Positions 30,223 to 41,361 of a stretch of 64,000 nucleotides of DNA are shown here, in pieces (position 1 is the first letter of the stretch; each line of letters begins with the position of its first letter). The stretch comes from Bacteroidota bacterium (GTDB lineage Bacteria; Bacteroidota; Ignavibacteria; Ignavibacteriales; Melioribacteraceae). The stretch is taken from the NCBI GenBank assembly GCA_018818165.1, contig JAHISP010000071.1:1-64000 (forward strand). The letters run 5' to 3'. Both the position numbers and the translations under genes were made by a program. The notes under the pieces were generated by a model, which had not been told where the DNA came from, ran no database searches, and worked only from the letters and a program-made list of their open reading frames with translations.

Positions 30223-30318
30223 TTTAGTCCATTAATTGTTATTAAAAAAATAATTATTGAAAATTAAGATAGTAATAAATAATGAATGGTTTTAAAAATA
30301 TATGTGAATATTTGTTAC

Positions 30319-30349
30319 TTGACAATCACGATTTTTTGATTTACATTTC
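30319..30349 (+). promoter_or_regulatory. Candidate promoter of the ars operon
   Basis: TTGACA (30319-30324), a 17-base spacer and TACATTTC (30342-30349) fit the TTGnCA-N17-TAnnTTT pattern recurring in this window. The box lies about 26 bp before the chosen arsR ATG and its -7 element overlaps an inverted repeat suited to ArsR binding. Confidence 0.55.
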
Positions 30350-30364
30350 GTCATATAACGAAAT
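30345..30364. promoter_or_regulatory. Candidate ArsR operator
   Basis: Arms ATTTCGT (30345-30351) and ACGAAAT (30358-30364) are exact reverse complements separated by CATATA. The dyad overlaps the -7 box and ends 10 bp before the arsR start codon, the usual place for an autoregulatory ArsR operator. Binding is inferred from symmetry and position. Confidence 0.6.
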
Positions 30365-30374
30365 AGGATTTGCA

Positions 30375-30722
30375 ATGATGGTTGAAAACACAAAAATATT
30401 CAAAGCGCTTTCGGATAATAGCAGGCTACGTATCTTGAAAATGCTTCAAATTAAATCACTTTGCGTATGCGAAATTCAAGATATTCTTGGTTTGGCTGCT
30501 TCAACAGTTTCAAAACATTTGAGTATTTTACGCGATACGGGATTTATTACAGAAGAAAAAGAAGGGAAATGGGTAAATTATATGATAAATACACATCCAA
30601 GAGATTTACGGATTTCTTCTGTTTTATCATCACTCGATTTTTGGATTGCCGATGAAAAAACAATTATTGAAGATAAAGATAAAATTAAATCAATTAACCG
30701 ATTTACTATTTGTAGTAACTAA
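30375..30722 (+). CDS. arsR: ArsR-family arsenic-responsive repressor
   Basis: Winged-helix metalloregulator of 115 residues. The helix-turn-helix (about 34-60) has LGLAASTVSKHLSILRDTGF. The As(III)-binding pair Cys30-Val-Cys32 lies in SLCVCEI, the classical alpha-3 position of arsenic-sensing ArsR, and an extra Cys lies near the end (TICSN). The start is set at ATG 30375 (or 30378) after AGGA; an upstream in-frame ATG at 30282 would add 31 residues and would swallow the promoter and operator. It is first gene of a long ars operon and probably represses it until arsenite binds. Confidence 0.93.
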   Translation: MMVENTKIFKALSDNSRLRILKMLQIKSLCVCEIQDILGLAASTVSKHLSILRDTGFITEEKEGKWVNYMINTHPRDLRISSVLSSLDFWIADEKTIIEDKDKIKSINRFTICSN

Positions 30723-30783: not shown

Positions 30784-32085
30784 ATGAATTGGAAAGAACA
30801 ATATAAAAATTTTTTGTGGATAGCGGGAGTTTTCCTATTTATCTATTTTATGCCCTTGGGCAATACAAACTTTGATTCAGCAATATATGATGCTTTAGAA
30901 TTAGCAAAATGGTACGCTCGCGAGCATGTGCTTTTGTGCTTAATTCCAGCATTTTTTATTGCAGGCACCATTTCTGTATTTGTTAGCAGCGCATCAGTTA
31001 TAAAATATTTTGGTGCTAAAGCTAAATTGTGGATTGCTTATTTAGTGGCTTCCGTTTCGGGTTCAATTCTTGCAGTTTGCTCATGCACAGTTCTTCCGCT
31101 GTTTTCAAGTATTCACAAACGCGGTGCCGGTTTGGGACCTGCAATTGCATTTCTTTATTCTGGACCAGCAATAAATATTTTAGCTATAATTTTAACCGCT
31201 CGAATTCTCGGTTTTGAGCTTGGAATTGCACGCATTATTGGGGCAATAATATTTAGTGTTGTAATTGGCTTAATAATGGCGTTTTTGTACAGAAAAGAGG
31301 AGGCAGAAAAAGCAAAAACTCAATTGGCTATGCCAGAAATTCCAGAAGAACGACCAATGTGGCAAACAACATCACATTTTTTTGTTTTGGTAGGAATTTT
31401 AGTGTTTGCAACTTGGGGAAATCCTGAAGAAAATAGTGGATTTTTTGTATTGGTGGCTCAATATAAGTGGTTAATTACGGGTGTTTTTGGAATTTTACTT
31501 TCTGCTTCATTAATCTTTATCCTAAAAATTAATAAAACTTGGGTTTTGCTTGCAACTGTGTTTGTCGCAATTTTAGGATTTTCTTTCCCAAATGAGCCAT
31601 TAATTGCTTTTGTAGCCGCAATTTTTGCACTTTCTGTTATACTGACTTTCTCAAAAGATGAAGCAAATGATTGGCTTGGTGAAAGTTGGACTTTAGCAAA
31701 GCAAATTTTACCGTTGCTTATTGGTGGAGTTTTGGTTGCAGGATTTTTACTCGGTCGCCCAGGTGGTGGAACGGGAATAATTCCAGCCGAGTGGATTAGC
31801 AATCTTGTTGGTGGAAATTCAATTTCAGCCAATTTTTTTGCATCATTTATAGCAGCTTTTATGTATTTCGCAACTCTTACAGAAGTTCCAATTTTGCAAG
31901 GATTAATGAATAATGGAATGGGAAATGGACCCGCACTTGCACTTTTATTAGCTGGTCCAGCGTTATCTTTGCCAAATATGCTTGTAATAAGAAATGTAAT
32001 TGGAACTGAAAAAACAGTCGTTTATGTTACATTAGTAATAATAATGGCGACAATTAGTGGAGTTGTTTTTGGATCGTTTTATTAA
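30784..32085 (+). CDS. ArsP_1-family permease
   Basis: Inner-membrane permease of 433 residues with roughly 10-11 helices in two halves. The first half holds VCSCTVLPLFSSIHKRGAGLG and the second FATLTEVPILQGLMNNGMG, the paired motifs of PF03773 permeases. Members include ArsP, which exports trivalent organoarsenicals, and SO_0444-type proteins implicated in Cu/Zn efflux. Being between arsR and acr3 and close to arsM, which would make methylated arsenicals, export of methylarsenite is the best guess. The two Cys in the CSC motif could bind a soft metal(loid). It is followed by a small CxxC protein that often accompanies this permease. Confidence 0.85.
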   Translation: MNWKEQYKNFLWIAGVFLFIYFMPLGNTNFDSAIYDALELAKWYAREHVLLCLIPAFFIAGTISVFVSSASVIKYFGAKAKLWIAYLVASVSGSILAVCSCTVLPLFSSIHKRGAGLGPAIAFLYSGPAINILAIILTARILGFELGIARIIGAIIFSVVIGLIMAFLYRKEEAEKAKTQLAMPEIPEERPMWQTTSHFFVLVGILVFATWGNPEENSGFFVLVAQYKWLITGVFGILLSASLIFILKINKTWVLLATVFVAILGFSFPNEPLIAFVAAIFALSVILTFSKDEANDWLGESWTLAKQILPLLIGGVLVAGFLLGRPGGGTGIIPAEWISNLVGGNSISANFFASFIAAFMYFATLTEVPILQGLMNNGMGNGPALALLLAGPALSLPNMLVIRNVIGTEKTVVYVTLVIIMATISGVVFGSFY

Positions 32086-32123: not shown

Positions 32124-32366
32124 ATGTTAGAAATTAAAGTTATAGGAAGCGGTTGCCCTAATTGTAAAAAATTAGAAGCACTTTGTAACGAAGTTGTTAA
32201 TGAAAAAAAGTTGGATGCAAAAATTGAAAAAGTAACTGATTTTAATCAATTTGGCGAATTGGGAATTATGATGACACCAGGTTTAATTGTAAATGGAAAA
32301 ATATTAAGCCAAGGTAAAATTCCAACAAAATCAACTCTTGAACATTGGATAATTGATTCAAATTAA
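32124..32366 (+). CDS. Small redox-active disulfide (thioredoxin-like) protein
   Basis: An 80-residue cytoplasmic thioredoxin-fold protein. Active site Cys11-Pro-Asn-Cys14 lies in GSGCPNCKK, with the conserved cis-Pro segment MMTPGLIVNGK about 40 residues on. This is the TM0996/MTH895 type. Such proteins often lie next to ArsP-type permeases and in ars operons, where they are thought to support dithiol reduction or metal hand-over. A paralogue follows three genes downstream. The AAGGAAAAAC stretch upstream is a usable ribosome binding site. Confidence 0.88.
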   Translation: MLEIKVIGSGCPNCKKLEALCNEVVNEKKLDAKIEKVTDFNQFGELGIMMTPGLIVNGKILSQGKIPTKSTLEHWIIDSN

Positions 32367-32402: not shown

Positions 32403-33479
32403 ATGGCAAATCTTACAAAACGTTTGAACTTTTTAGATAGATATTTAACGCTGTGGATTTTTCTTGCAATGTTTTTGGGCGTGTTTTCTGGATATTTATT
32501 TCCAGAAGTTGCCCCATTTTGGAATTCGTTTAATAGCGGAACCACAAATATTCCTATTGCAATTGGATTAATTTTAATGATGTATCCTCCGCTTGCAAAG
32601 GTTAAATATGAAGAACTTGGCGACGTATTCAAAGACACCAAAATTTTAATTCTTTCACTTGTCCAAAATTGGATTATTGGTCCAGTTTTAATGTTTGGAT
32701 TAGCAATATTATTTTTACAAGATTATCCAAATTATATGGCTGGATTAATCTTAATTGGACTTGCTCGTTGCATTGCAATGGTTATAGTTTGGAACGATTT
32801 GGCTAATGGCGATCGCGAATATGCTGCTGGATTAGTAGCTTTTAACTCAATATTTCAAGTACTTTTCTTTTCGCTTTACGCTTATCTGTTTTTAACATTG
32901 CTTCCAGAATGGTTGGGAATTGCTTCGTTTCAAGTAGATGTTACAATATCACAAATTGCCGAAAGTGTTTTAATTTATTTGGGAATTCCTTTCTTTGGTG
33001 GAATGTTTACTCGTTATTTTCTAATTAAAGCAAAAGGGAAAGATTGGTATAATAGGAAATTTATTCCAAAGTTAAGTCCATTAACATTATATGCTTTGCT
33101 ATTCACAATATTTGTAATGTTTTCGCTTAAAGGTGAATACATTGTAAAAATTCCATTAGATGTTGTAAAAATTGCCATTCCACTCGTGCTTTATTTTGTA
33201 ATTATGTTTTTTGTTTCCTTTTTTATGGGCAAAAAAATGGGAGCAAATTATCCCAAAACTGTAACGTTAAGTTTTACGGCAGCAAGTAACAATTTTGAAC
33301 TTGCAATAGCAGTTGCAATAGCAGTTTTTGGAATAAATAGTGGAGAAGCATTTGCCGCAGTTATTGGTCCTTTGGTAGAAGTTCCAGTCCTAATTACGTT
33401 GGTTAATGTTGCATTATGGCTTAAGAAGAAATATTTCAAAAATGAAAAAGAAATTTATAAATCACAAATTATTAGTTAA
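32403..33479 (+). CDS. acr3: ACR3-family arsenite efflux permease
   Basis: Inner-membrane arsenite exporter of 358 residues with ten predicted helices. The conserved Cys123 in the helix-4 motif [14 protein letters not shown] and the helix-9 Glu in [10 protein letters not shown] are both present; these are the residues tied to As(III) transport in ACR3 proteins. It lies in the middle of the operon between a small CxxC protein and arsM. Expected substrate is As(OH)3, produced by the arsenate reductase encoded further downstream. Confidence 0.96.
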
Positions 33480-33490
33480 AAAGGAAAAAA

Positions 33491-34285
33491 ATGAATACAA
33501 ATCAAGAAGTTAAAAACGTAGTAAAAGATAAATATGCATCAATTGCAGTAAAAGAAAGTGGTTGCGGATGTAGTTGCGGATGTGGTTCTCAGCAAGTGGA
33601 AGTAAATATGATTGGCGATGAATATAAAAATGTTGATGGACATATTGAAGAAGCTGATTTAGGATTGGGATGCGGAATTCCCACGGTATTTGCAGATATT
33701 AAATTAAATGATATAGTACTCGATCTTGGAAGTGGTGCTGGTAACGATGTTTTTATTGCAAGTAAATTAGTCGGTCCTTTGGGTAAAGTAATTGGTGTTG
33801 ATATGACCAATGAAATGATTGAGAAAGCTAATTACAATAAAGCTAAATTAAACTTTTCTAATGTTGAATTTCGTTTAGGCGAAATTGAATATTTACCTAT
33901 TGAAGATAACTCGATAGATGTTGTGTTAAGCAATTGCGTACTTAATTTAGTTCCAGATAAAAATAAAGCGTTTTCTGAAATATATAGAACGTTAAAAACA
34001 AATGGACATTTTTGCATTTCTGATATTGTTACAAAAGGAAATTTGCCAGAAAAGTTAAAAAAATCGGCTGAAATGTATGCGGGTTGTGTTTCTGGAGCAA
34101 TTCAGCAAAGCGACTATTTACAAATAATTCAACAAACTGGATTTGAAAATGTTGAAATAAAAAAATCGAAAGTGATTGAACTTCCCGATAATTTATTATC
34201 TGAATATTTGAATGAAGCAGAAATTAAAGCTTTCAGAGAAAATGAAATAGGAGTTTTTAGCATAACAGTTCAAGCAAAAAAATAA
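33491..34285 (+). CDS. arsM: Arsenite S-adenosylmethionine methyltransferase
   Basis: Cytoplasmic methyltransferase of 264 residues that methylates trivalent arsenic with SAM. The SAM-binding motif VLDLGSGAGND is at 77-87. The three As(III)-ligand cysteines are present: Cys61 (GLGCGIPT), Cys149 (LSNCVLNL) and Cys199 (YAGCVSGA). An extra N-terminal cluster, Cys25/27/29/31 in GCGCSCGCG, is common in bacterial ArsM. The start codon is 12 bp after the acr3 stop, preceded by AAAAAGGAAA. Methylated trivalent products could be exported by the ArsP-type permease two genes upstream. Confidence 0.96.
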   Translation: MNTNQEVKNVVKDKYASIAVKESGCGCSCGCGSQQVEVNMIGDEYKNVDGHIEEADLGLGCGIPTVFADIKLNDIVLDLGSGAGNDVFIASKLVGPLGKVIGVDMTNEMIEKANYNKAKLNFSNVEFRLGEIEYLPIEDNSIDVVLSNCVLNLVPDKNKAFSEIYRTLKTNGHFCISDIVTKGNLPEKLKKSAEMYAGCVSGAIQQSDYLQIIQQTGFENVEIKKSKVIELPDNLLSEYLNEAEIKAFRENEIGVFSITVQAKK

Positions 34286-34308
34286 ATAGTTTAAAATGGA
34301 GTTGTAAG

Positions 34309-34545
34309 ATGAAAACAATAAAAGTACTCGGCACAGGTTGTGCAAAATGTAAAAATCTTGACAGAAAAGTTAGGGAATTAGTTGAAAAACACAACATTAA
34401 TGCCGAAGTACTTTATGTTACAGATATAAACGAAATGATAGAAGCTGGAATTATGATGACTCCAGGTTTATCAGTTAATGGAGTTGTAAAATCTATTGGA
34501 ATAATTCCAAAAGAAGAACAAATGCTAAAATGGTTTGCGGAATGA
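34309..34545 (+). CDS. Second small redox-active disulfide protein
   Basis: A 78-residue thioredoxin-fold protein paralogous to the one at 32.1 kb. Active site Cys11-Ala-Lys-Cys14 lies in GTGCAKCKN, and MMTPGLSVNGV is the conserved cis-Pro segment. It begins after a GGAG site and its stop overlaps the start of the rhodanese gene (ATGA at 34542-34545), suggesting translational coupling. Two different CxxC partners in one operon suggest that different reductases or permeases are served. Confidence 0.88.
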   Translation: MKTIKVLGTGCAKCKNLDRKVRELVEKHNINAEVLYVTDINEMIEAGIMMTPGLSVNGVVKSIGIIPKEEQMLKWFAE

Positions 34546-35006
34546 AAATTATGAAAAATTTTATCGTAATTATTTTAATCTCTTTTACAACAATTTTGGG
34601 TCAAAATATAAAAAAAGGGGAAATCGTGGATTTTGCAGATTATTTGCGAAACTTCAATTATCAAGAAAGAAAGGATATGAAAATAGATGTTGAGCAGTTA
34701 CTTGCTTTGCTAATTGAAGAAAAAGCTGAGTTAATTGATATCCGATTTACTGAGGAAGTTGAAACTTGGGGAGTAAGTTTTTCAAAAAATATTCCTCTAA
34801 ACGAACTTCCTAACAGACTTTCAGAATTGGATAAAAATAAAATTATTGTTACGGTTTGTCCTCACATGGATAGAGCTTCAATTGCAAGGCAATATTTAAC
34901 GTTAAACGGATTTGAAAGCAAATATCTAACAATTGGTCTGCTTGGTTTGGTTGAATATTTAAGAGGTGATAAAGCAAAAGATTTTGTTAAAAAATTAAAA
35001 AAGTAG
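34542..35006 (+). CDS. Exported single-domain rhodanese-like protein
   Basis: About 154 residues with a hydrophobic signal peptide (cleaved after ILGQ) and one rhodanese fold (about 50-150). The active-site loop is CPHMDRASIA, keeping the catalytic Cys with an Arg; LIDIRFTEE is the family's first motif. Periplasmic rhodaneses carry sulfane sulfur or serve as thiol redox proteins; the exact role here is unknown. The start is set at 34542 because its ATG overlaps the previous stop; in-frame ATGs at 34530 and 34551 are alternatives. It is followed by an exported thioredoxin and CcdA, so a periplasmic thiol relay is likely. Confidence 0.85.
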   Translation: MKIMKNFIVIILISFTTILGQNIKKGEIVDFADYLRNFNYQERKDMKIDVEQLLALLIEEKAELIDIRFTEEVETWGVSFSKNIPLNELPNRLSELDKNKIIVTVCPHMDRASIARQYLTLNGFESKYLTIGLLGLVEYLRGDKAKDFVKKLKK

Positions 35007-35042
35007 TACCAAATAAAATATCACAAAAAAAATGGAAAAATT

Positions 35043-35444
35043 ATGAAAAATCTTATTACAAAATTCATTGTGCTTCTACTCGTATTTTCAACTTCATGTA
35101 TTGCACAAAATGCAGATGACGAAAATAGTACAATTAAAAAGTTAACTACGAAAGCAAAAGTAACATTTGTTGAGTTAGGCTCAGTAAATTGTATTCCTTG
35201 CGTAAAGATGCAACCAGTTATGAAAGCAATTGAAGAAAAATATGGTGAACAAATTGATGTAGTATTTTATGATGTTTGGAAACCCGAACAAAAAATGTAT
35301 GCTCAAAAATATGGTATTAAACTAATTCCAACCCAAGTATTTTTGGATGAAAGCGGCAAAGAATTCCATCGTCACGAAGGATTTTATCCCGAAATTGAAA
35401 TTGACAAAATTCTGAAAACCAAAGGATTGAAGGCAAAGGATTAA
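35043..35444 (+). CDS. Exported thioredoxin-like protein
   Basis: A 133-residue protein with an N-terminal signal (1-21, ending TSCIAQ; Cys19 might act as a lipoprotein anchor, but the lipobox is poor). The thioredoxin domain has active site Cys50-Ile-Pro-Cys53 and cis-Pro segment LIPTQVFLDE. Its stop is 1 bp from the ccdA start. CcdA-type proteins pass electrons across the membrane to exactly such thioredoxins, so the pair should form a periplasmic reducing branch within the ars operon. Confidence 0.9.
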   Translation: MKNLITKFIVLLLVFSTSCIAQNADDENSTIKKLTTKAKVTFVELGSVNCIPCVKMQPVMKAIEEKYGEQIDVVFYDVWKPEQKMYAQKYGIKLIPTQVFLDESGKEFHRHEGFYPEIEIDKILKTKGLKAKD

Positions 35445-35445
35445 A

Positions 35446-36144
35446 ATGATAGAAAGTTTATTTAATACACTTTACGATGCAATGTTAGGTGCAACTTGGA
35501 TTGCACTTCTTGCTTCATTTGTTTGGGGAATATTATCAATACTCCTTTCACCTTGTCATCTATCAAGTATTCCACTTGTGGTTGGATTTATAAGTACACA
35601 AGGGAAAATATCGGTAGGCAGGACTTTTAAAATATCGCTAGTTTTTTCTATCGGTATTTTAATTACAATTGCATTAATTGGTGTTATAACCGCATCGTTA
35701 GGCAGATTGATGGGAGATGTAGGCGTTTACGGTAACTACTTTGTAGCTGCTATATTTTTTGTTGTAGGATTATATTTGCTCGACATAATCAAAATTGATT
35801 GGAATAGTGCGGGATTAAAGCAAACCAAAGCAAAGGGTTTACTTGCAGCTTTAATACTAGGTTTACTTTTTGGTATTGCACTTGGTCCTTGCACGTTTGC
35901 ATACATGGCACCAGTTCTTGGAGTTGTATTTCAAACAGCTCAAACCAATTATTTTCTAGCAATTATATTTTTGTTGGCTTTCGGCATTGGGCATTGTACC
36001 GTTATTGTTGGTGCTGGAACACTTGCTGGCAAAGTTCAAAAATATTTGAATTGGAGTGAAGAATCAAAAGTAATCTTGTGGATTAAACGCGTTTGTGGAA
36101 TTTTAGTAATTCTTGGTGGAATCTATTTGTTAACAAACTTTTAA
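35446..36144 (+). CDS. CcdA/DsbD-beta-type transmembrane electron carrier
   Basis: Inner-membrane protein of 232 residues with six predicted helices. One conserved Cys lies in each half, in LLSPCHLSSIPLV and GIALGPCTFAYMAP, the redox pair of CcdA. Such proteins take electrons from cytoplasmic thioredoxin and deliver them to periplasmic thioredoxin-like proteins; the partner is encoded immediately upstream. Presence in an ars operon suggests that reduction of periplasmic thiols, or of a cytochrome or metal-binding partner, is part of the arsenic response (inference). Confidence 0.9.
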   Translation: MIESLFNTLYDAMLGATWIALLASFVWGILSILLSPCHLSSIPLVVGFISTQGKISVGRTFKISLVFSIGILITIALIGVITASLGRLMGDVGVYGNYFVAAIFFVVGLYLLDIIKIDWNSAGLKQTKAKGLLAALILGLLFGIALGPCTFAYMAPVLGVVFQTAQTNYFLAIIFLLAFGIGHCTVIVGAGTLAGKVQKYLNWSEESKVILWIKRVCGILVILGGIYLLTNF

Positions 36145-36163
36145 AAATTTTAGGAAAACGTAA

Positions 36164-36787
36164 ATGACTATATATGAACCAGTAAAAAACGAAATTTTAA
36201 AGCTATTGAAAACAAGTTATACAATTAGCGAAGAAAGGAAAAATTTGTTAAATAACTTTGCTGAGTATATTTCCAAAAAAATAAATAATGGAACGGTTGT
36301 AAATCTTATTTTTATTTGTACTCATAATTCAAGACGAAGTACAATGAGTCAAATTTGGGCTCAAACTGCGGCGGAGTATTTTAACATTCCAAACATAAAT
36401 TGTTTTTCTGGTGGAACGGAAGCTACTGCATTTAATCCAAGAGCCGTAAAAGCTGTCCAAAATTTTGGTTTTAAAGTTGAACAAAAAGATGAGTCGGAAA
36501 ATCCAATTTATCTAGTCCATTTTTCGGATGAAAATGAACCAATTAAATGTTTTTCAAAAGTTTATAGTGATAAATTTAACCCTCAAAATAATTTTGCTGC
36601 AATTATGACTTGCTCAGATGCGGACGCAAATTGTCCATTAGTTTTAGGTGCAGAAGCAAGATTTCCTGTTAAATATAACGATCCAAAAGAATATGATGAT
36701 ACTGATTTTGAAACGCAAAAATATTCTGAAAGATTTGAACAAATTGGAATAGAAATGCTTTATACATTTAGTAGGATTAAGCAGTGA
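36164..36787 (+). CDS. Arsenate reductase, low-molecular-weight tyrosine phosphatase type
   Basis: Cytoplasmic enzyme of 207 residues that would reduce As(V) to As(III). After an N-terminal extension (1-45), the PTPase P-loop CTHNSRRS (catalytic Cys52, Arg58) is followed by the FSGGTEATAFNPRAV segment. Further cysteines Cys150 and Cys157 in MTCSDADANC could complete a thiol relay. An Asp-Pro in YNDPKEYDD may be the general acid. The fold is that of the Staphylococcus-type ArsC, which is recycled by thioredoxin; small CxxC proteins in the same operon could serve. Its stop codon overlaps the GTG of the next gene. Confidence 0.9.
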   Translation: MTIYEPVKNEILKLLKTSYTISEERKNLLNNFAEYISKKINNGTVVNLIFICTHNSRRSTMSQIWAQTAAEYFNIPNINCFSGGTEATAFNPRAVKAVQNFGFKVEQKDESENPIYLVHFSDENEPIKCFSKVYSDKFNPQNNFAAIMTCSDADANCPLVLGAEARFPVKYNDPKEYDDTDFETQKYSERFEQIGIEMLYTFSRIKQ

Positions 36788-38112
36788 ATCAATTTGAAGA
36801 TTCGTTTATAAACATAAACAGTGTAAAAATTTTAGATTCTTTAGCAGAGGGAATTTATGTAATTGATAAAGAGTTTAAAATTAGGTTTGTTAATAAAGCC
36901 GCATATCAAATAACTAATAAAAAGCCAACAGATGTTATAGGTCAAATATGTCGTAGTCTTTGTAAATCGGATAGATGCGAAATTGGCTGTCCTGTTACAG
37001 AGGTTTTACAAACAGGAAAAAATGTTATTGATATGGAATCGACTTTGCAAGACAATAACGGAAATCTTATACCAGTACTGTTAAATGCCTCTATTCTAAA
37101 TGATGTTGATGGTGACACTCTTGGGGGAATAATAAGTTTTAAAAAGAACAGAAAGAGTATTTTTTCTGGTTATAATAGCAAAGAAAATATGTATTATGGA
37201 ATAATTGGAAAATCTAAAAAGATGGTGGCTCTTTTTAATGTGATTAGTGAAATATCCTACAGTTTTGCCACAGTTTTAATTACAGGTGAAACTGGAGTAG
37301 GAAAAGAGCTTATTGCAAATGCTGTAAAAGAAACTAGCAGCAGAAATAAGGCACCATTTGTAAAAGTAAATTGTGCTGCGCTTCCACCAACTTTATTGGC
37401 TAGCGAATTATTTGGGCATGTAAAAGGTGCTTTTACAGATGCAAAGAATGATAGAATTGGTAGATTTGAATTTGCTGATGGTGGAACAATATTTTTAGAC
37501 GAAATTGCAGAAATTCCAATAGCAATGCAAGCACAATTATTACGAGTTATTCAAGACGGAACTTTTGAAAGATTAGGAGATAGTAAAACAAGAAAAACAG
37601 ATATAAGAATTATTGCTGCAACAAATAAAAATTTGCTAGATGAAATTTCAAAAAATATGTTTAGAGAAGATTTATTTTATCGTTTAAATGTAGTTCCATT
37701 ATTTGTTCCATCACTCCGTGAGCGCAAAGAAGATATTATATATTTAACGAAATATTTTATTGAAAAGTTTAATGAGAAATATGGTAAAAATATTGAATAT
37801 GCCGATAATGATACTATGGATATTTTAATGAATTACGATTGGCCAGGAAATATTAGGGAATTAGAGAACTGTATTGAATATTCTATTATTAGATCTAAAC
37901 GGGCAGATTATATTTGTTCTTGTTCTTTACCATCTAGCTTAAGAAAGAAAGACCATTGTAATCAGAACCTTTCACTTAAAGAAATTGAATTAAACGAGAA
38001 AACCGAAACAATTCTTGCTTTACTAAGGCAGAACAATTGGAATAAATCTAAAGTAGCAGAAATTCTTGGCATTAATAGAAGCACTATCCACAGAAAACTA
38101 AAAAAAATATAG
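36784..38112 (+). CDS. PAS-domain sigma-54-dependent transcriptional activator
   Basis: Enhancer-binding protein of 442 residues. The PAS domain (about 14-120) carries a cysteine cluster, Cys56, Cys60, Cys65 and Cys69, likely to sense redox state or a metal. The AAA+ domain has Walker A GETGVGKE (168-175), Walker B TIFLDE (235-240) and the sigma-54 loop written GAFTDA (215-220) rather than GAFTGA. A Fis-type helix-turn-helix ends the protein (NNWNKSKVAEILGINRSTIHRKL). It starts with GTG overlapping the arsC stop (GTGA), so it is translated with the ars operon. Phased TTGCAA sites and a -24/-12-like promoter lie just downstream, making the next two genes its probable targets. Confidence 0.93.
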   Translation: MNQFEDSFININSVKILDSLAEGIYVIDKEFKIRFVNKAAYQITNKKPTDVIGQICRSLCKSDRCEIGCPVTEVLQTGKNVIDMESTLQDNNGNLIPVLLNASILNDVDGDTLGGIISFKKNRKSIFSGYNSKENMYYGIIGKSKKMVALFNVISEISYSFATVLITGETGVGKELIANAVKETSSRNKAPFVKVNCAALPPTLLASELFGHVKGAFTDAKNDRIGRFEFADGGTIFLDEIAEIPIAMQAQLLRVIQDGTFERLGDSKTRKTDIRIIAATNKNLLDEISKNMFREDLFYRLNVVPLFVPSLRERKEDIIYLTKYFIEKFNEKYGKNIEYADNDTMDILMNYDWPGNIRELENCIEYSIIRSKRADYICSCSLPSSLRKKDHCNQNLSLKEIELNEKTETILALLRQNNWNKSKVAEILGINRSTIHRKLKKI

Positions 38113-38131
38113 CAACTTGATAAATTAACTG

Positions 38132-38199
38132 TTGCAATTTGACGCATCTTTAAACCTATAATTTCCTTTTAACCTTTTATTTGTTGCAAAGTGTTGCAA
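38132..38199. promoter_or_regulatory. Three phased TTGCAA sites: candidate enhancer of the sigma-54 activator
   Basis: The self-complementary hexamer TTGCAA occurs at 38132-38137, 38184-38189 and 38194-38199, each time preceded by G. Spacings are 52 and 10 bp, close to five and one helical turns, so all three face the same side of the DNA. They lie 55-120 bp upstream of a -24/-12-like promoter, the usual enhancer distance, and immediately behind the gene for a sigma-54 activator. Confidence 0.5.
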
Positions 38200-38248
38200 T
38201 TATAAAATATATACCTATCTTTTTAACTCTAAATCGAAATAAATATTC

Positions 38249-38264
38249 TGGTATAAAAGTTGAC
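38249..38264 (+). promoter_or_regulatory. Candidate sigma-54 promoter (-24/-12)
   Basis: TGGTAT (38249-38254) matches the -24 consensus TGGYAY. Five bases later TTGAC (38260-38264) matches the -12 element TTGCW except for A in place of C, with the canonical spacing between GG and TTG. Transcription would begin near 38275, at the first ATG of the TPR gene. Either that message is leaderless or translation starts at the ATG at 38285. Confidence 0.5.
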
Positions 38265-38275
38265 TACTTGCGAGT

Positions 38276-38749
38276 ATGAACGAAATGCTTGCAAATCAAT
38301 ATTTTATTTCTGAACGCTACCAAGAAGCTTCCTACCAATATGGTGAAGTATTAAAAAAACATCCAGAAAACTATTTAGTAAAAAAGAAATTAGTGTTATG
38401 CTACATCAAAACAGGTGAAATAGATAATGCATTAAAGTTATTTACAGAACTTACTAAATCAAATGTTAACATAATCTTCAAGAATGAAATAAGTATCTAT
38501 CCTCAAATATGTAAAGATATGATTTATGAAATTGAAAATTTTAACTCAAATTTTACTCAAAAAGAAAAATATTTAATTCTTGGAATATTATATATGTATT
38601 GTGACTTTAAAATTGCAGAAGAACATTTCCAAAAACTACAAAAAATGATTCCTTACAATGACAATTTATTCACAACTATAAAAACTATTAATCATTTTAT
38701 TACTAAAAAAAAGGAACATGAAGATGGAAAAGAAACTTTATTCACGTAA
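38276..38749 (+). CDS. TPR-like protein upstream of the split-Soret-like cytochrome
   Basis: About 157 residues, all helical. YQEASYQYGEVLKKHPENY and GEIDNALKLFTELTK follow the tetratricopeptide pattern (two repeats, about 1-60); the remainder is helical without a clear motif. No signal peptide is visible, so it should be cytoplasmic, perhaps a chaperone or adaptor for the cytochrome-like product. It overlaps the next gene by 26 bp in another frame, implying coupled expression. The first ATG coincides with the predicted transcription start, so ATG 38285 is an alternative start. Confidence 0.7.
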   Translation: MNEMLANQYFISERYQEASYQYGEVLKKHPENYLVKKKLVLCYIKTGEIDNALKLFTELTKSNVNIIFKNEISIYPQICKDMIYEIENFNSNFTQKEKYLILGILYMYCDFKIAEEHFQKLQKMIPYNDNLFTTIKTINHFITKKKEHEDGKETLFT

Positions 38750-39848
38750 AGACTTTTTAACAAACACTACAAAGTATGTTGCTGGTGCTGCTATTGGGGT
38801 TGTTGGACTAAGTACAATTGGAGGAGAAAAAATATTTGGTAATGTAAAAGAATATACTTGGCCTTACCCATACACAGCTCTCGACCCAGAAGTAGCTCGA
38901 TTAAAAGCTCATACTCTTTATTGGAATGGTATGGATTGTGGAGCAGGAGTTTTGGGTGGAATTACAGAATGTTTGAAGGATGCCATTGGTGACCCTTGGA
39001 ATAATTTCCCAATTGAGATTTTGCTGTTTGGACGTGGTGGTGGCGTGAGCTGGGGTTCGCTATGTGGAGCATTAAATGGTGCAGGCGCAATTGTGAGTTT
39101 AGTTGTTGAAAAAGATCCTTCTGTTGCATTAATTAACGAAATTTGGGGCTGGTACACAACAGAAAATTTACCAACTGATGCCGCAAATAACGCAACTTAC
39201 ACAGAAATTAAATATTCAGGTGCTTTACCTCAAAATATTGCTGGCTCTCCACTTTGTCATCAATCTGTTAGTCAATGGTGTAATATTGCCAATAAAAAAG
39301 TTGCTGATATTGAGAGAAAAGAAAGATGTGCTCGTTTAGCCGGAGATATTGCTGCAAAGACAGTGCAAGTATTAAATGCATATTTTGCAAGTACATTTGT
39401 TGGAACTTTTTCTGATCCATCAGAAAATGCTACTTGTTTAACTTGCCATGGTGGTGCTGTGCTTGGTAACGTAATGACACATATGGAATGTGCGTCATGC
39501 CATAATGACTCACCAGTTCATAATGGAATATATGTTGGCGCTGAGCCAATTTCGGATTCAACTCCTAAAAACTATAAATTAGAAAACGCTTATCCAAATC
39601 CATTTAATCCCGAAACAACAATTCGATTTTCTCTTCCAAAAGCTGAAAAAGTAAGACTTGAGATATTTGATATTCGTGGCAGACTTGTTCACTCAATCAT
39701 TGATTCAGATTATATGCCAGCTGGAACATATGAATCGAAGTGGAACGCGACTGATAATATAGGAGCAAAAGTTAGTAGTGGAATTTATATTGCTCGTATT
39801 ACAACAGGCAATTTCATCCAATCAATAAAACTCAACCTTCTTAAATAG
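38724..39848 (+). CDS. Split-Soret-cytochrome-like (C_GCAxxG_C_C) protein with two CxxCH motifs and T9SS tail
   Basis: A 374-residue exported redox protein. The N-terminal signal contains SRKDFLTN and a hydrophobic run (18-32), a Tat-like motif with Lys for the second Arg. A C_GCAxxG_C_C-type domain follows, with Cys72, Cys83, Cys114 (LCGALNGAG), Cys178, Cys186 and Cys202. Two c-type haem motifs come next, CLTCH (238-242) and CASCH (256-260). The order resembles split-Soret cytochrome c of Desulfovibrio. Residues about 285-374 are a T9SS sorting domain (NAYPNPFNPETTI, VRLEIFDIRGRLV), which that protein lacks. ATG 38724 is chosen for AAGGA 8 bases upstream. Surface-located diheme electron transfer is inferred. 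Confidence 0.85.
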   Translation: MEKKLYSRKDFLTNTTKYVAGAAIGVVGLSTIGGEKIFGNVKEYTWPYPYTALDPEVARLKAHTLYWNGMDCGAGVLGGITECLKDAIGDPWNNFPIEILLFGRGGGVSWGSLCGALNGAGAIVSLVVEKDPSVALINEIWGWYTTENLPTDAANNATYTEIKYSGALPQNIAGSPLCHQSVSQWCNIANKKVADIERKERCARLAGDIAAKTVQVLNAYFASTFVGTFSDPSENATCLTCHGGAVLGNVMTHMECASCHNDSPVHNGIYVGAEPISDSTPKNYKLENAYPNPFNPETTIRFSLPKAEKVRLEIFDIRGRLVHSIIDSDYMPAGTYESKWNATDNIGAKVSSGIYIARITTGNFIQSIKLNLLK

Positions 39849-39876
39849 TAAAAATAATTTAGGAAAATTTAAAATT

Positions 39877-39912
39877 AAAAAGCCTACAAAAATAATTTTG
39901 TAGGCTTTTTTT
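39877..39912 (+). terminator. Strong rho-independent terminator after the cytochrome-like gene
   Basis: Exact 15-bp arms AAAAAGCCTACAAAA (39877-39891) and TTTTGTAGGCTTTTT (39896-39910) enclose the loop ATAA and run into further T residues. It begins 28 bp after the stop codon and closes the putative sigma-54 operon. Confidence 0.85.
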
Positions 39913-39960
39913 ATACACCATAAAATGGAATAAAATTTATTGGTCCAAGTAGAAGTTAAA

Positions 39961-40033
39961 ATAAAAATCAAACGACAAAAGGTAAATTCCAAACAAATAA
40001 CCAAAACTATGTACTTGCAGTCCATAGTTTTGG
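39961..40033. repeat. Dispersed intergenic repeat, copy 1
   Basis: The first 47 bp (39961-40007, beginning ATAAAAATCAAACGACAAAAG) match 56030-56076 at 43 of 47 positions. A hairpin follows, with arms CCAAAACTATGTACT (40001-40015) and AGTCCATAGTTTTGG (40019-40033), one mismatch and loop TGC; the ACT-TGC-AGTCCAT core recurs in the hairpin at 56244-56268. Both copies sit just beyond a transcription terminator. Confidence 0.65.
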
Positions 40034-40129
40034 TTTAGTAAATATCAGTTCCATTGTTAATTGGCATTTCTAATTTTCGTTATTTATCCAGCATTTTTTT
40101 CGCTTAGTATAATTATCAAAAACCCAATT

Positions 40130-40570
40130 TTAGCCTTTTACCATTGAGCAACCGTTAGTTTTACAGTTGTCGTCACATTTATGCATCATTGCTTTTTTTT
40201 CAATAGTTTTAGCTTCTTTCATTTTCACAGCTGTACAACCAGCAGTTTTGCATTCGTCAGTGCAAACATGTTTTGCAACATCTGCACATGCTTTTGCTTT
40301 TTTAGCTTTTACAACATCACAGCCAGCAGTTTTACATTCGTCAGTACAAACATGTTTTGCAACATCTGCACATGCTTTTGCTTCTTTAGCTTTTACAACA
40401 TCACAGCCTGCAGTTTTACATTCGTCAGTGCAAACATGTTTTGGCGCTTTATCAGAGCAACATGCTTTTGCTTTTTCAGTGCTTGGTTTTTCTTGTGCAA
40501 ATAGTGATGTTGACAGAATTAATGTAAATCCTATAACAAACATTCCTTTTATTAAATTTGTAGCTTTCAT
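40130..40570 (-). CDS. Exported cysteine-rich tandem-repeat protein (putative metal binder)
   Basis: A 146-residue protein with a signal peptide (1-26, cleaved after LFAQ). Its mature part is three nearly identical 28-residue repeats (44-71, 72-99, 100-127), each with HVCTDECKTAGC and most with a further Cys in KACADVA. A degenerate fourth unit follows (HKCDDNCKTNGC, 130-141), and a CC pair precedes the repeats at 37-38. With 15 Cys plus His in about 110 residues it looks like a periplasmic metallothionein-like metal or metalloid sponge; no enzyme motif is present. It starts after a good AAGGAG site. It lies beside the ars island, on the opposite strand. Function is inferred only. Confidence 0.8.
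   Translation of the reverse strand: MKATNLIKGMFVIGFTLILSTSLFAQEKPSTEKAKACCSDKAPKHVCTDECKTAGCDVVKAKEAKACADVAKHVCTDECKTAGCDVVKAKKAKACADVAKHVCTDECKTAGCTAVKMKEAKTIEKKAMMHKCDDNCKTNGCSMVKG
40190..40441 (-). repeat. Three 84-bp tandem repeats inside the Cys-rich gene
   Basis: The units are in frame, each exactly 84 bp (28 codons). The marker CATTCGTCAG or its close variant recurs at 40251, 40335 and 40419 on the plus strand. Units differ at only a few bases, so the duplication is recent and the copy number may vary between strains. Confidence 0.85.
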
Positions 40571-40634
40571 TGTTTCTCCTTTTTTATGATTAATTAAGTG
40601 TCTGTCAAAAAATAATAATGTTGTCTAATTCTTG

Positions 40635-40652
40635 TTGTCGTATAACGGACAA
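40635..40652. promoter_or_regulatory. Operator-like dyad upstream of the Cys-rich gene
   Basis: TTGTCGTATAACGGACAA has TTGTC/GACAA ends and a near-palindromic CGTATAACG core, 65 bp upstream of the Cys-rich gene's start codon. The core shares CGT and ATAACG with the proposed ArsR operator at 30345-30364, but lacks the three bases CAT between them. A link to ArsR is therefore tentative. Confidence 0.35.
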
Positions 40653-40830
40653 TAATGAAAAATATGTAATGTTATAAAATTAAGTTTCACTAAACAAGAC
40701 AGATTAACTTATTAAAATATAACACTAGTATAATTAAAAAAAACAAAATAAAATCCTTTCTTTTAATAATATTGAGGTAACCAATTATTATTAAATTATT
40801 TTTCGCACTTACTAATTCAATTTTAGTTAA

Positions 40831-41361
40831 GGTCAAATTGTATCGGCAAAAAAAATAACGGAATTCCTGAAATCTCAAAATATTCGGTTTTCAAATAATA
40901 TTGTGTTGGATTATCTAAATTATCTTTGCGATGCTTATTTTATTATTAAAGTAAAACGAACGGATATCAAAGGAAAGCGTATTCTTGAAATAGGAGAAAA
41001 ATATTATCTAGAGGATACAGGGTTACGACATGCTCTCACAGGTTATAAACAAAATGATATAAGTCAATTACTTGAAAATATTGTTCTATTACATTTATTA
41101 ATAAATGATTACGAAGTTACTGTTGGAAAACTTGATGATAAAGAGATTGATTTTATTTGCGATAAATTAGATGATAGAATCTATATTCAAGTAACACTCT
41201 CTTTAGCAAGTGAAGAAGTTAAAAAACGTGAATATGGTAACTTAGTTGCCATAAAGGACAATTACAAAAAAATTGTTATTACTGCTGATGAATATAAAGC
41301 CGATTCAATTGAAGGAATTGAGACTATAAATATTCGTGATTTTTTACTGAATTTTAGCTAA
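40831..41361 (+). pseudogene. C-terminal remnant of a DUF4143 AAA ATPase
   Basis: The frame is open from just after a stop at 40828 and reads, with family-like sequence, SAKKITEFLKSQ, then LDYLNYLCDAYFI, YYLEDTGLRHALTG and DKEIDFICDKLDDRIYIQV. These are the middle and end of the DUF4143 domain found behind an AAA ATPase module in 'ATP-binding protein' genes of about 400 residues. The ATPase half is absent; only about 176 residues remain, without a proper start (first candidate is GTG 40903). It is therefore a truncated gene, probably non-functional. Upstream sequence holds no recognisable rest of the gene. Confidence 0.75.

Follow-up and report, generated by a model that had tools for sequence, protein, structure and literature searches.

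Predicted sigma-54 control of a split-Soret-type cytochrome operon by a neighbouring activator gene behind an arsenic-resistance gene run

Introduction

Sigma-54 control of an arsenic-related redox gene is known for arsenite oxidase, according to excerpts of one report (PMC2848651). The AoxRS/AioSR system of those excerpts resembles the locus considered here, which lies in a 64,000-nucleotide stretch of DNA from a bacterium of the Melioribacteraceae (class Ignavibacteria), in having a sigma-54 promoter before such a gene. However, AoxRS/AioSR is a two-component system with another enzyme, whereas our locus has a PAS-type activator and a tetratricopeptide repeat (TPR) partner before the gene of a split-Soret-type cytochrome. 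We refer to the whole stretch (positions 1 to 64,000 of contig JAHISP010000071.1, assembly GCA_018818165.1) as the window. A first-pass annotation, made from the letters alone, had proposed that the activator is encoded at the end of an arsenic-resistance (ars) operon and controls the cytochrome gene, and had stated that no described link between arsenic resistance, sigma-54 control and split-Soret cytochromes was known. The latter statement needs qualifying: in the excerpts of the literature available, no paper joined a split-Soret cytochrome or C_GCAxxG_C_C protein with both sigma-54 and arsenic (split-Soret and arsenic were not searched as a pair), but the control of arsenite oxidase by sigma-54 is described (PMC2848651). 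A literature search for C_GCAxxG_C_C with arsenic found none, and PMC5701242, as excerpted, mentions a split-Soret cytochrome and sigma-54, but separately.

In the part available of a mutant fitness survey, Desulfovibrio split-Soret genes are among those without a phenotype (PMC4215793), and no function of split-Soret cytochromes was met in the literature excerpts examined. Two other regulators offer comparisons. The window activator gives a full-length match (residues 13-441) to the NCBIfam model of PrdR (NF041552), but at 343.9 bits against a cut-off of 795. The target genes of PrdR also differ from those of our activator. In systems of the PspF/PspA type, an activator has a negative partner made from the activator's own target promoter. 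The window TPR protein would likewise come from a promoter under the control of its own activator, a likeness of gene arrangement.

Results

Predicted target sites and promoter

The activator gene, its candidate target sites and the operon tpr-ssc follow one another in the window.

36784..38112, + strand: PAS-AAA+-Fis sigma-54 activator, with PAS cysteines Cys56/65/69 and recognition-helix residue N431 (Pfam domains and comparison)
38131..38136, + strand: distal half-site GTTGCA (comparison), with a putative imperfect repeat, GACGCA, 10 bp further along (38141-38146)
38183..38188, + strand: proximal half-site 1, GTTGCA (comparison with relatives)
38193..38198, + strand: proximal half-site 2, GTTGCA (comparison with relatives)
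38249..38264, + strand: -24/-12 element TGGTATAAAAGTTGAC (comparison), with a transcript start predicted near 38275
38276..38749, + strand: TPR protein, with C42, C79 and C109 retained and C77 of a CPC motif lost (alignment, tree)
38718..39848, + strand: split-Soret-type dihaem cytochrome with a type IX secretion system (T9SS) sorting tail, probably exported (Pfam, NCBIfam, alignment, 1h21 match)
39877..39910, no strand assigned (listed on the - strand): terminator-like hairpin at the end of the operon, 15 pairs, 4 of them G-C

The features named in the first-pass annotation occur in this layout. The start of the activator gene overlaps the end of the arsC-like gene (GTGA at 36784-36787), and its product is matched by PAS, Sigma54_activat (PF00158, 3.5e-68) and HTH_8, a Fis-type helix-turn-helix (PF02954, 4.4e-11). 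The GAFTGA loop reads GAFTDA, with D replacing the second G, and was counted as such a loop; its residues G215-A220 are kept in 20-21 of 21 split-Soret activators. From the activator stop to the TPR start codon there are 163 bp, in which the three phased sites (GTTGCA at 38131, 38183 and 38193, spacing 52 and 10) and TGGTAT-N5-TTGAC (38249-38264) were found as claimed. The TPR gene (38276-38749) and the C_GCAxxG_C_C/split-Soret gene with two CxxCH motifs (38718-39848) come next, the start of the second overlapping the end of the first (38718 versus 38749), and the terminator claimed behind the cytochrome gene corresponds to the hairpin. The window's own genome has an rpoN gene, with a single match to PF00309 (E 2.2e-13).

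A search with the cytochrome protein across 294 genomes of the class gave matches in 56, the own genome included. Beyond the window, 56 neighbourhoods were mapped; 20 have activator, TPR and cytochrome genes in line, making 21 loci with the window, one of which (L032) is a near copy of it. At L040 the TPR and cytochrome genes stand at a contig end, and L056 gave no cytochrome open reading frame (ORF). The 21 intergenic regions hold 77 half-sites (GTTGCA/TGCAAC), against 5.5±2.3 and a maximum of 12 in 200 dinucleotide shuffles. Without L032, there are 74 in 3,656 bp (20 per kb); at 34 loci lacking the activator, the 700-bp stretches upstream of the cytochrome gene have 16 in 22,984 bp (0.7 per kb). 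Most half-sites lie 8-11 bp from the next, in direct or inverted orientation, and they form a distal and a proximal cluster. The pattern GG[CT]A-N6-TTG occurs within 50 nt of the TPR ATG at 21 of 21 loci (mean 0.16, maximum 2 in dinucleotide shuffles), so that both half-sites and -24/-12 element pass the conservation check proposed for them. Because the first G of the pattern is 25-30 nt upstream of the TPR start codon, the usual distance from the -24 G to a sigma-54 start gives an estimated leader of 0-6 nt. So close a promoter (38249-38276 in the window, and the corresponding sites in the 20 relatives) predicts a nearly leaderless transcript.

In the window's own genome, GTTGCA-N45..75-GGYA-N6-TTG gave 27 rows, two of them the window site, against 5 for a backward control; this search covered direct GTTGCA only. 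Among the 27 rows, two GTTGCA lie 10 bp apart only at the window site. The strict consensus TGGCAYRNNNNTTGCW occurs at two places in this genome, and the stretches inspected look coding. A sigma-70 scan of 34000-41000 on both strands found 24 sites against 36.4±5.9 in shuffles, i.e., below shuffles, and none on the + strand from 37889 to 39497.

Among the loci without an activator, seven from two genera (L069, L070, L075, L078, L076, L082 and L083) have the promoter pattern 59-92 nt before the cytochrome gene, and trans control of such split-Soret genes is possible. The next gene upstream of the cytochrome gene encodes MarR in six and ArsR in three of the 34, the three ArsR genes having a CQC motif. 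Judged by gene order, the split-Soret cytochrome is one effector under different predicted regulators across loci.

A wider activator-TPR family

The PAS part of the activator, searched in the same 294 genomes, had matches in 151, and 30 neighbourhoods were taken from the better ones. A homologous TPR gene was present in 22 of these 30, with multihaem cytochromes beside it in those inspected. A scan of named genomes with the TPR alignment gave 91 places, the best 80 of which correspond to 79 loci; they are labelled Ignavibacteria and kin, Calditrichota and KSB1, with a few Bacteroidota, Chlorobiota, Actinomycetota and Deltaproteobacteria bins. The TPR gene was recognised in 78 of the 79; in 68, an activator gene precedes it on the same strand at a distance of up to 4.5 kb, and at 63 of the 78 the activator-TPR module adjoins exported c-type cytochromes. 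The loci were sorted as follows, on our own gene calls with Pfam run on single members only.

Type S, split-Soret: 20 loci
Type A, TPR then multihaem cytochrome: 10 loci
Type B, activator, ten-haem cytochrome, double rhodanese and TPR: 26 loci, 16 of them with a barrel-like ORF
Type B', TPR, cytochrome and rhodanese: 7 loci
Type C (Calditrichota), TPR before a small unknown ORF and an XerD-like gene: 7 loci, four of them with a PIG-L-like gene first
Untyped: 8 loci

The promoter pattern is found in 18/19 (S), 7/10 (A), 19/20 (B), 5/7 (B'), 7/7 (C) and 4/5 (untyped) loci, for shuffle expectations of 0.23, 0.26, 1.5, 0.1, 0.14 and 0.19, respectively; the type S rows largely repeat species already used to define the pattern. 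For the modules other than split-Soret the pattern was fixed beforehand, and 42 of 49 have it against 2.2 expected. Its spacing to the ATG is 29-31 in five of the seven pattern-bearing type A loci and 36-42 in type C, and at L229 the pattern is present but 200 nt before the TPR ATG. Misses are L218, L222, L230, L231, L233, L240 and L281 outside the split-Soret type and L249 within it; at L249, L218, L230 and L281, GG-N10-GC stands near the TPR start with TA or TAT replacing TT, as seen post hoc. The window's own genome also carries a type B module (L196). Apparently, the pairing of a PAS-sigma-54 activator with a cysteine-bearing TPR protein is a wider, undescribed family, mostly beside surface cytochromes; no description of it was found in the literature excerpts available.

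Two gene arrangements in this family were recorded separately. At four Calditrichota loci (L258, L260, L263 and L273), the activator-TPR pair is followed by a PIG-L-like deacetylase, a small unknown protein and an XerD-like gene; L256, L266 and L275 are as the other type C loci but without the PIG-L-like gene, XerD being named from sequence. At L173, L274 and other type B loci, one run comprises a barrel-like protein, 14-haem and further cytochromes, activator, ten-haem cytochrome, double rhodanese lipoprotein and TPR, often then ccsA-like and hemA-like genes, several of these names coming from sequence. The barrel-like ORF has no Pfam match and is a 'porin' by look alone. It is possible that this run is a sigma-54-controlled extracellular electron conduit.

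The recognition helix and the DNA site covary. The 20 split-Soret activators group as a single clade (100/100) in a tree of 73, and those closest to the window activator belong to Melioribacteraceae. The hexamers enriched ahead of the promoter are GTTGCA/GCAACA for type S but GTTTCA/GAAACA for types A, B, B' and C. The residue at window position N431 is N or D in all 20 type S activators, and among the others G in 47 and S in one. With N/D activators (n=20), GTTGCA outnumbers GTTTCA in 19 and the reverse holds in one; with G activators (n=47), GTTTCA is the more frequent in 41, GTTGCA in one and neither in five.

Activator, TPR protein and cytochrome

The first-pass annotation had described a Cys56/60/65/69 cluster in the PAS domain. 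Among 40 activators (12 of 51 candidates were excluded, their start motif not being located), C56 and C69 are invariant and C65 is present in at least 90%, but Cys60 is not conserved, and a four-cysteine cluster as a conserved feature is thereby ruled out. Within the 21 split-Soret activators, C56 and C69 occur in 21/21 and C65 in 20/21. The predicted activator structure has a pLDDT of 87 and a pTM of 0.60.

In the TPR alignment, C42 is present in 73 of 76 rows and C77, C79 and C109 each in 75. Conservation of the start motif MxEML is not independent evidence, since it was the search key. No signal peptide was seen in the window TPR protein. With the model of the L203 TPR protein (pLDDT 93), Foldseek returned a single match with E no higher than 0.001, and the structures matched are generic TPR scaffolds with a TM of about 0.4. 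In the TPR tree the split-Soret type is not one clade (5 changes), unlike in the activator tree, and strict co-inheritance of the pair is therefore not established. The TPR protein is kept with the activator while other genes change, which suggests a regulatory role for it, in loci that were themselves found through the TPR protein.

The cytochrome is homologous to split-Soret cytochrome c of Desulfovibrio desulfuricans (PDB 1h21) over residues 54-267 (3.8e-31), and the two CxxCH motifs plus further cysteines align. C74, C116, C180, C204 and both CxxCH are kept in 55-56 of 56 aligned rows. It scores 155.5 bits with the Desulfovibrio-type equivalog model NF047622, against a cut-off of 400, and is thus a homologue but not that equivalog; in 395 genomes of the phylum, this model had matches in 26 and above cut-off in none. 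Unlike the Desulfovibrio protein, the window cytochrome has a T9SS sorting tail (PF18962, 34.1 bits, cut-off 27; TIGR04183, 38.3 bits, cut-off 23) and apparently its own activator. In 50 of 56 rows the N-terminal sequence shows [STD]RKxFL, resembling a twin-arginine translocation motif with RK for RR, in a protein with a T9SS tail as well. Adjoining the terminator, 40130-40570 on the - strand encodes a cysteine-rich 146-aa protein with repeats such as HVCTDECKTAGCDVVKAKEAKACADVAK; it has no NCBIfam match and a Pfam match only below cut-off.

Arsenic-resistance genes

Upstream of the activator, the arsenic-resistance gene run reads as follows.

30282..30722, + strand: ArsR-family repressor gene, first of the ars operon (Pfam HTH_5, 3.5e-15)
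30784..32085, + strand: ArsP-type permease (PF03773, 4.7e-72)
32124..32366, + strand: small thioredoxin, Thioredoxin_3 (PF13192, 2.2e-26)
32403..33479, + strand: Acr3 arsenite efflux transporter (TIGR00832, 461.8 bits, above cut-off)
33491..34285, + strand: ArsM arsenite methyltransferase (NF008823, 328.7 bits, above cut-off)
34309..34545, + strand: second small thioredoxin-like ORF, in the gap behind arsM (translation; family by resemblance only)
34530..35006, + strand: rhodanese-domain protein, probably exported, from its N-terminus (PF00581, 1.6e-8)
35043..35444, + strand: thioredoxin-like protein, probably exported, from its N-terminus (PF13098)
35446..36144, + strand: CcdA/DsbD-like transmembrane protein, ArsG-like (PF02683, 1.1e-13; NF040495 below cut-off)
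36164..36787, + strand: ArsC/LMW-phosphatase-like protein with CX5R (weak NF010053 and LMWPc matches)

Gene order points to an ars operon, with ArsR, ArsP, Acr3 and ArsM in line and gaps of 11-61 bp; later gaps are at most 36 bp, except one of 244 bp containing the small ORF. The activator gene does stand at the end of this ArsR-headed run, as the annotation had it, but the 'arsC' label of the gene before it is weak, its matches being below cut-off (43.7 bits against 215; Pfam LMWPc 22.5 against 23.2). Of the 20 type S relatives, the window left out, nine have an Acr3, ArsM or ArsC-like gene at most 9 kb from the cytochrome gene, and none of the 58 other TPR loci does (Fisher 9e-7). The association is only indicative, because the references were the window's own proteins, the flanks differ in length and some of the 58 come from more distant lineages. 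Thioredoxin or DsbD genes lie near half of the type S relatives (10 of 20) and near none of the 58 other loci. At the 35 remaining cytochrome loci (L040 included), arsenic genes occur in 3, or in 7 counting ArsP.

Discussion

Our results suggest that the product of the gene at 36784 binds TGTTGCA half-sites, which form a distal and a proximal cluster in the stretch from the stop codon of that gene to the promoter at 38249. It would thereby drive transcription of the operon tpr-ssc by RNA polymerase-sigma54, the transcript probably starting 0-6 nt upstream of the TPR ATG. As the gene is at the end of an ArsR-headed operon, arsenic should raise the amount of activator. The PAS domain (Cys56/65/69) probably sets the activity of this protein, perhaps together with the TPR protein, which would be made from the same promoter that it would regulate. 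The output would be a dihaem cytochrome of the split-Soret type, which the cell would export to its surface. We put the probability of this model of a dedicated sigma-54 activator for tpr-ssc, taken as a whole, at about 0.8. Within it, sequence comparison gives good support to local control through sigma-54 and the neighbouring activator, and it also supports the target sites, promoter, operon and family; arsenic induction, the sensed signal, the role of the TPR protein, export and the substrate of the cytochrome are what we infer beyond that.

Several observations weigh against this model. The -12 element of the window reads GA rather than GC, one base off the consensus, although the base following TTG varies among the 21 loci (C in 10, A in 6, T in 5), which places GA within the range of the family. 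The promoter pattern was written after inspecting the 21 sequences, an initial version, one base off, having given 0/21. It also occurs in the 700 bp upstream of 12 of 34 cytochrome genes without an activator, where about 4.4 are expected at the background rate, and the pattern alone is therefore not specific to the activator. L249, the closest relative by activator, lacks it, though GG-N10-GC is there. The helix and site switched on one branch of the tree, so that a Fisher value for their covariation overstates independence, and with one split-Soret activator (L243) GTTTCA outnumbers GTTGCA. The window TPR protein is without Cys77 (and P78) and is the longest branch of its tree. Finally, 11 of 20 relatives have no arsenic gene within 9 kb; this rules out a universal arsenic link, and in these relatives the activator must be controlled otherwise. 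The original proposal of ars-linked sigma-54 control is supported by the conserved sites and promoter and by the presence of rpoN, but it needs widening: arsenic genes accompany only 9 of 20 relatives, and most other members of the family have multihaem cytochromes.

The motifs could be products of chance or composition, with a sigma-70-type promoter or the upstream ars operon supplying the transcript of tpr-ssc. The imperfect -12 element of the window is in keeping with this and read-through from the ars operon is conceivable, but the shuffle counts of half-sites and promoter and the covariation of helix and site lead us to reject chance motifs, and the 49 other modules and a sigma-70 scan below shuffles also argue against this explanation, which we regard as highly improbable. 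A stronger contender, to which we would give nearly even odds, accepts sigma-54 control but takes the signal to be extracellular electron-acceptor or thiol-redox status, with the arsenic genes as neighbours of convenience that share thioredoxin/CcdA-type reducing power. Most paralogous modules stand with multihaem cytochromes and have an arsenic gene in 0/58 by the thresholds used, and half of the split-Soret relatives (10/20) have thioredoxin/DsbD genes nearby while 11/20 are without an arsenic gene, all as this explanation would have it. However, the arsenic link is specific to the split-Soret type among the modules examined, and at three loci without an activator the cytochrome gene lies behind an ArsR gene with a CQC motif. 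Arsenic as the inducing signal is plausible and unproven.

It is also conceivable, if on balance doubtful, that the TPR protein acts in the cytoplasm to help cytochromes mature or be exported, and does not regulate the activator. Its gene is directly before the cytochrome gene in the split-Soret type and type A and after it in the same run in type B, and its structural matches are generic TPR scaffolds. Yet seven Calditrichota loci of type C keep activator and TPR with no cytochrome directly downstream, and the conserved TPR cysteines suit sensing at least equally well. A broader proposal, which we consider unlikely in its full form, is that activator and cysteine-bearing TPR protein constitute a new two-protein cytoplasmic sensor in Ignavibacteriota, Calditrichota and KSB1 that chiefly chooses a surface cytochrome. 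One branch of it would have been retargeted, with N/D for G in the helix and GTTGCA for GTTTCA in the site, towards a split-Soret cytochrome that acts in extracellular arsenic redox chemistry.

Split-Soret cytochromes are known structurally, and a dedicated promoter, an activator and a repeated arsenic linkage would provide a testable condition for making one. The helix-site switch would be a natural case of an activator changing its DNA target. The wider family, spread over three lineages, would be a common regulator in the vicinity of surface cytochromes.

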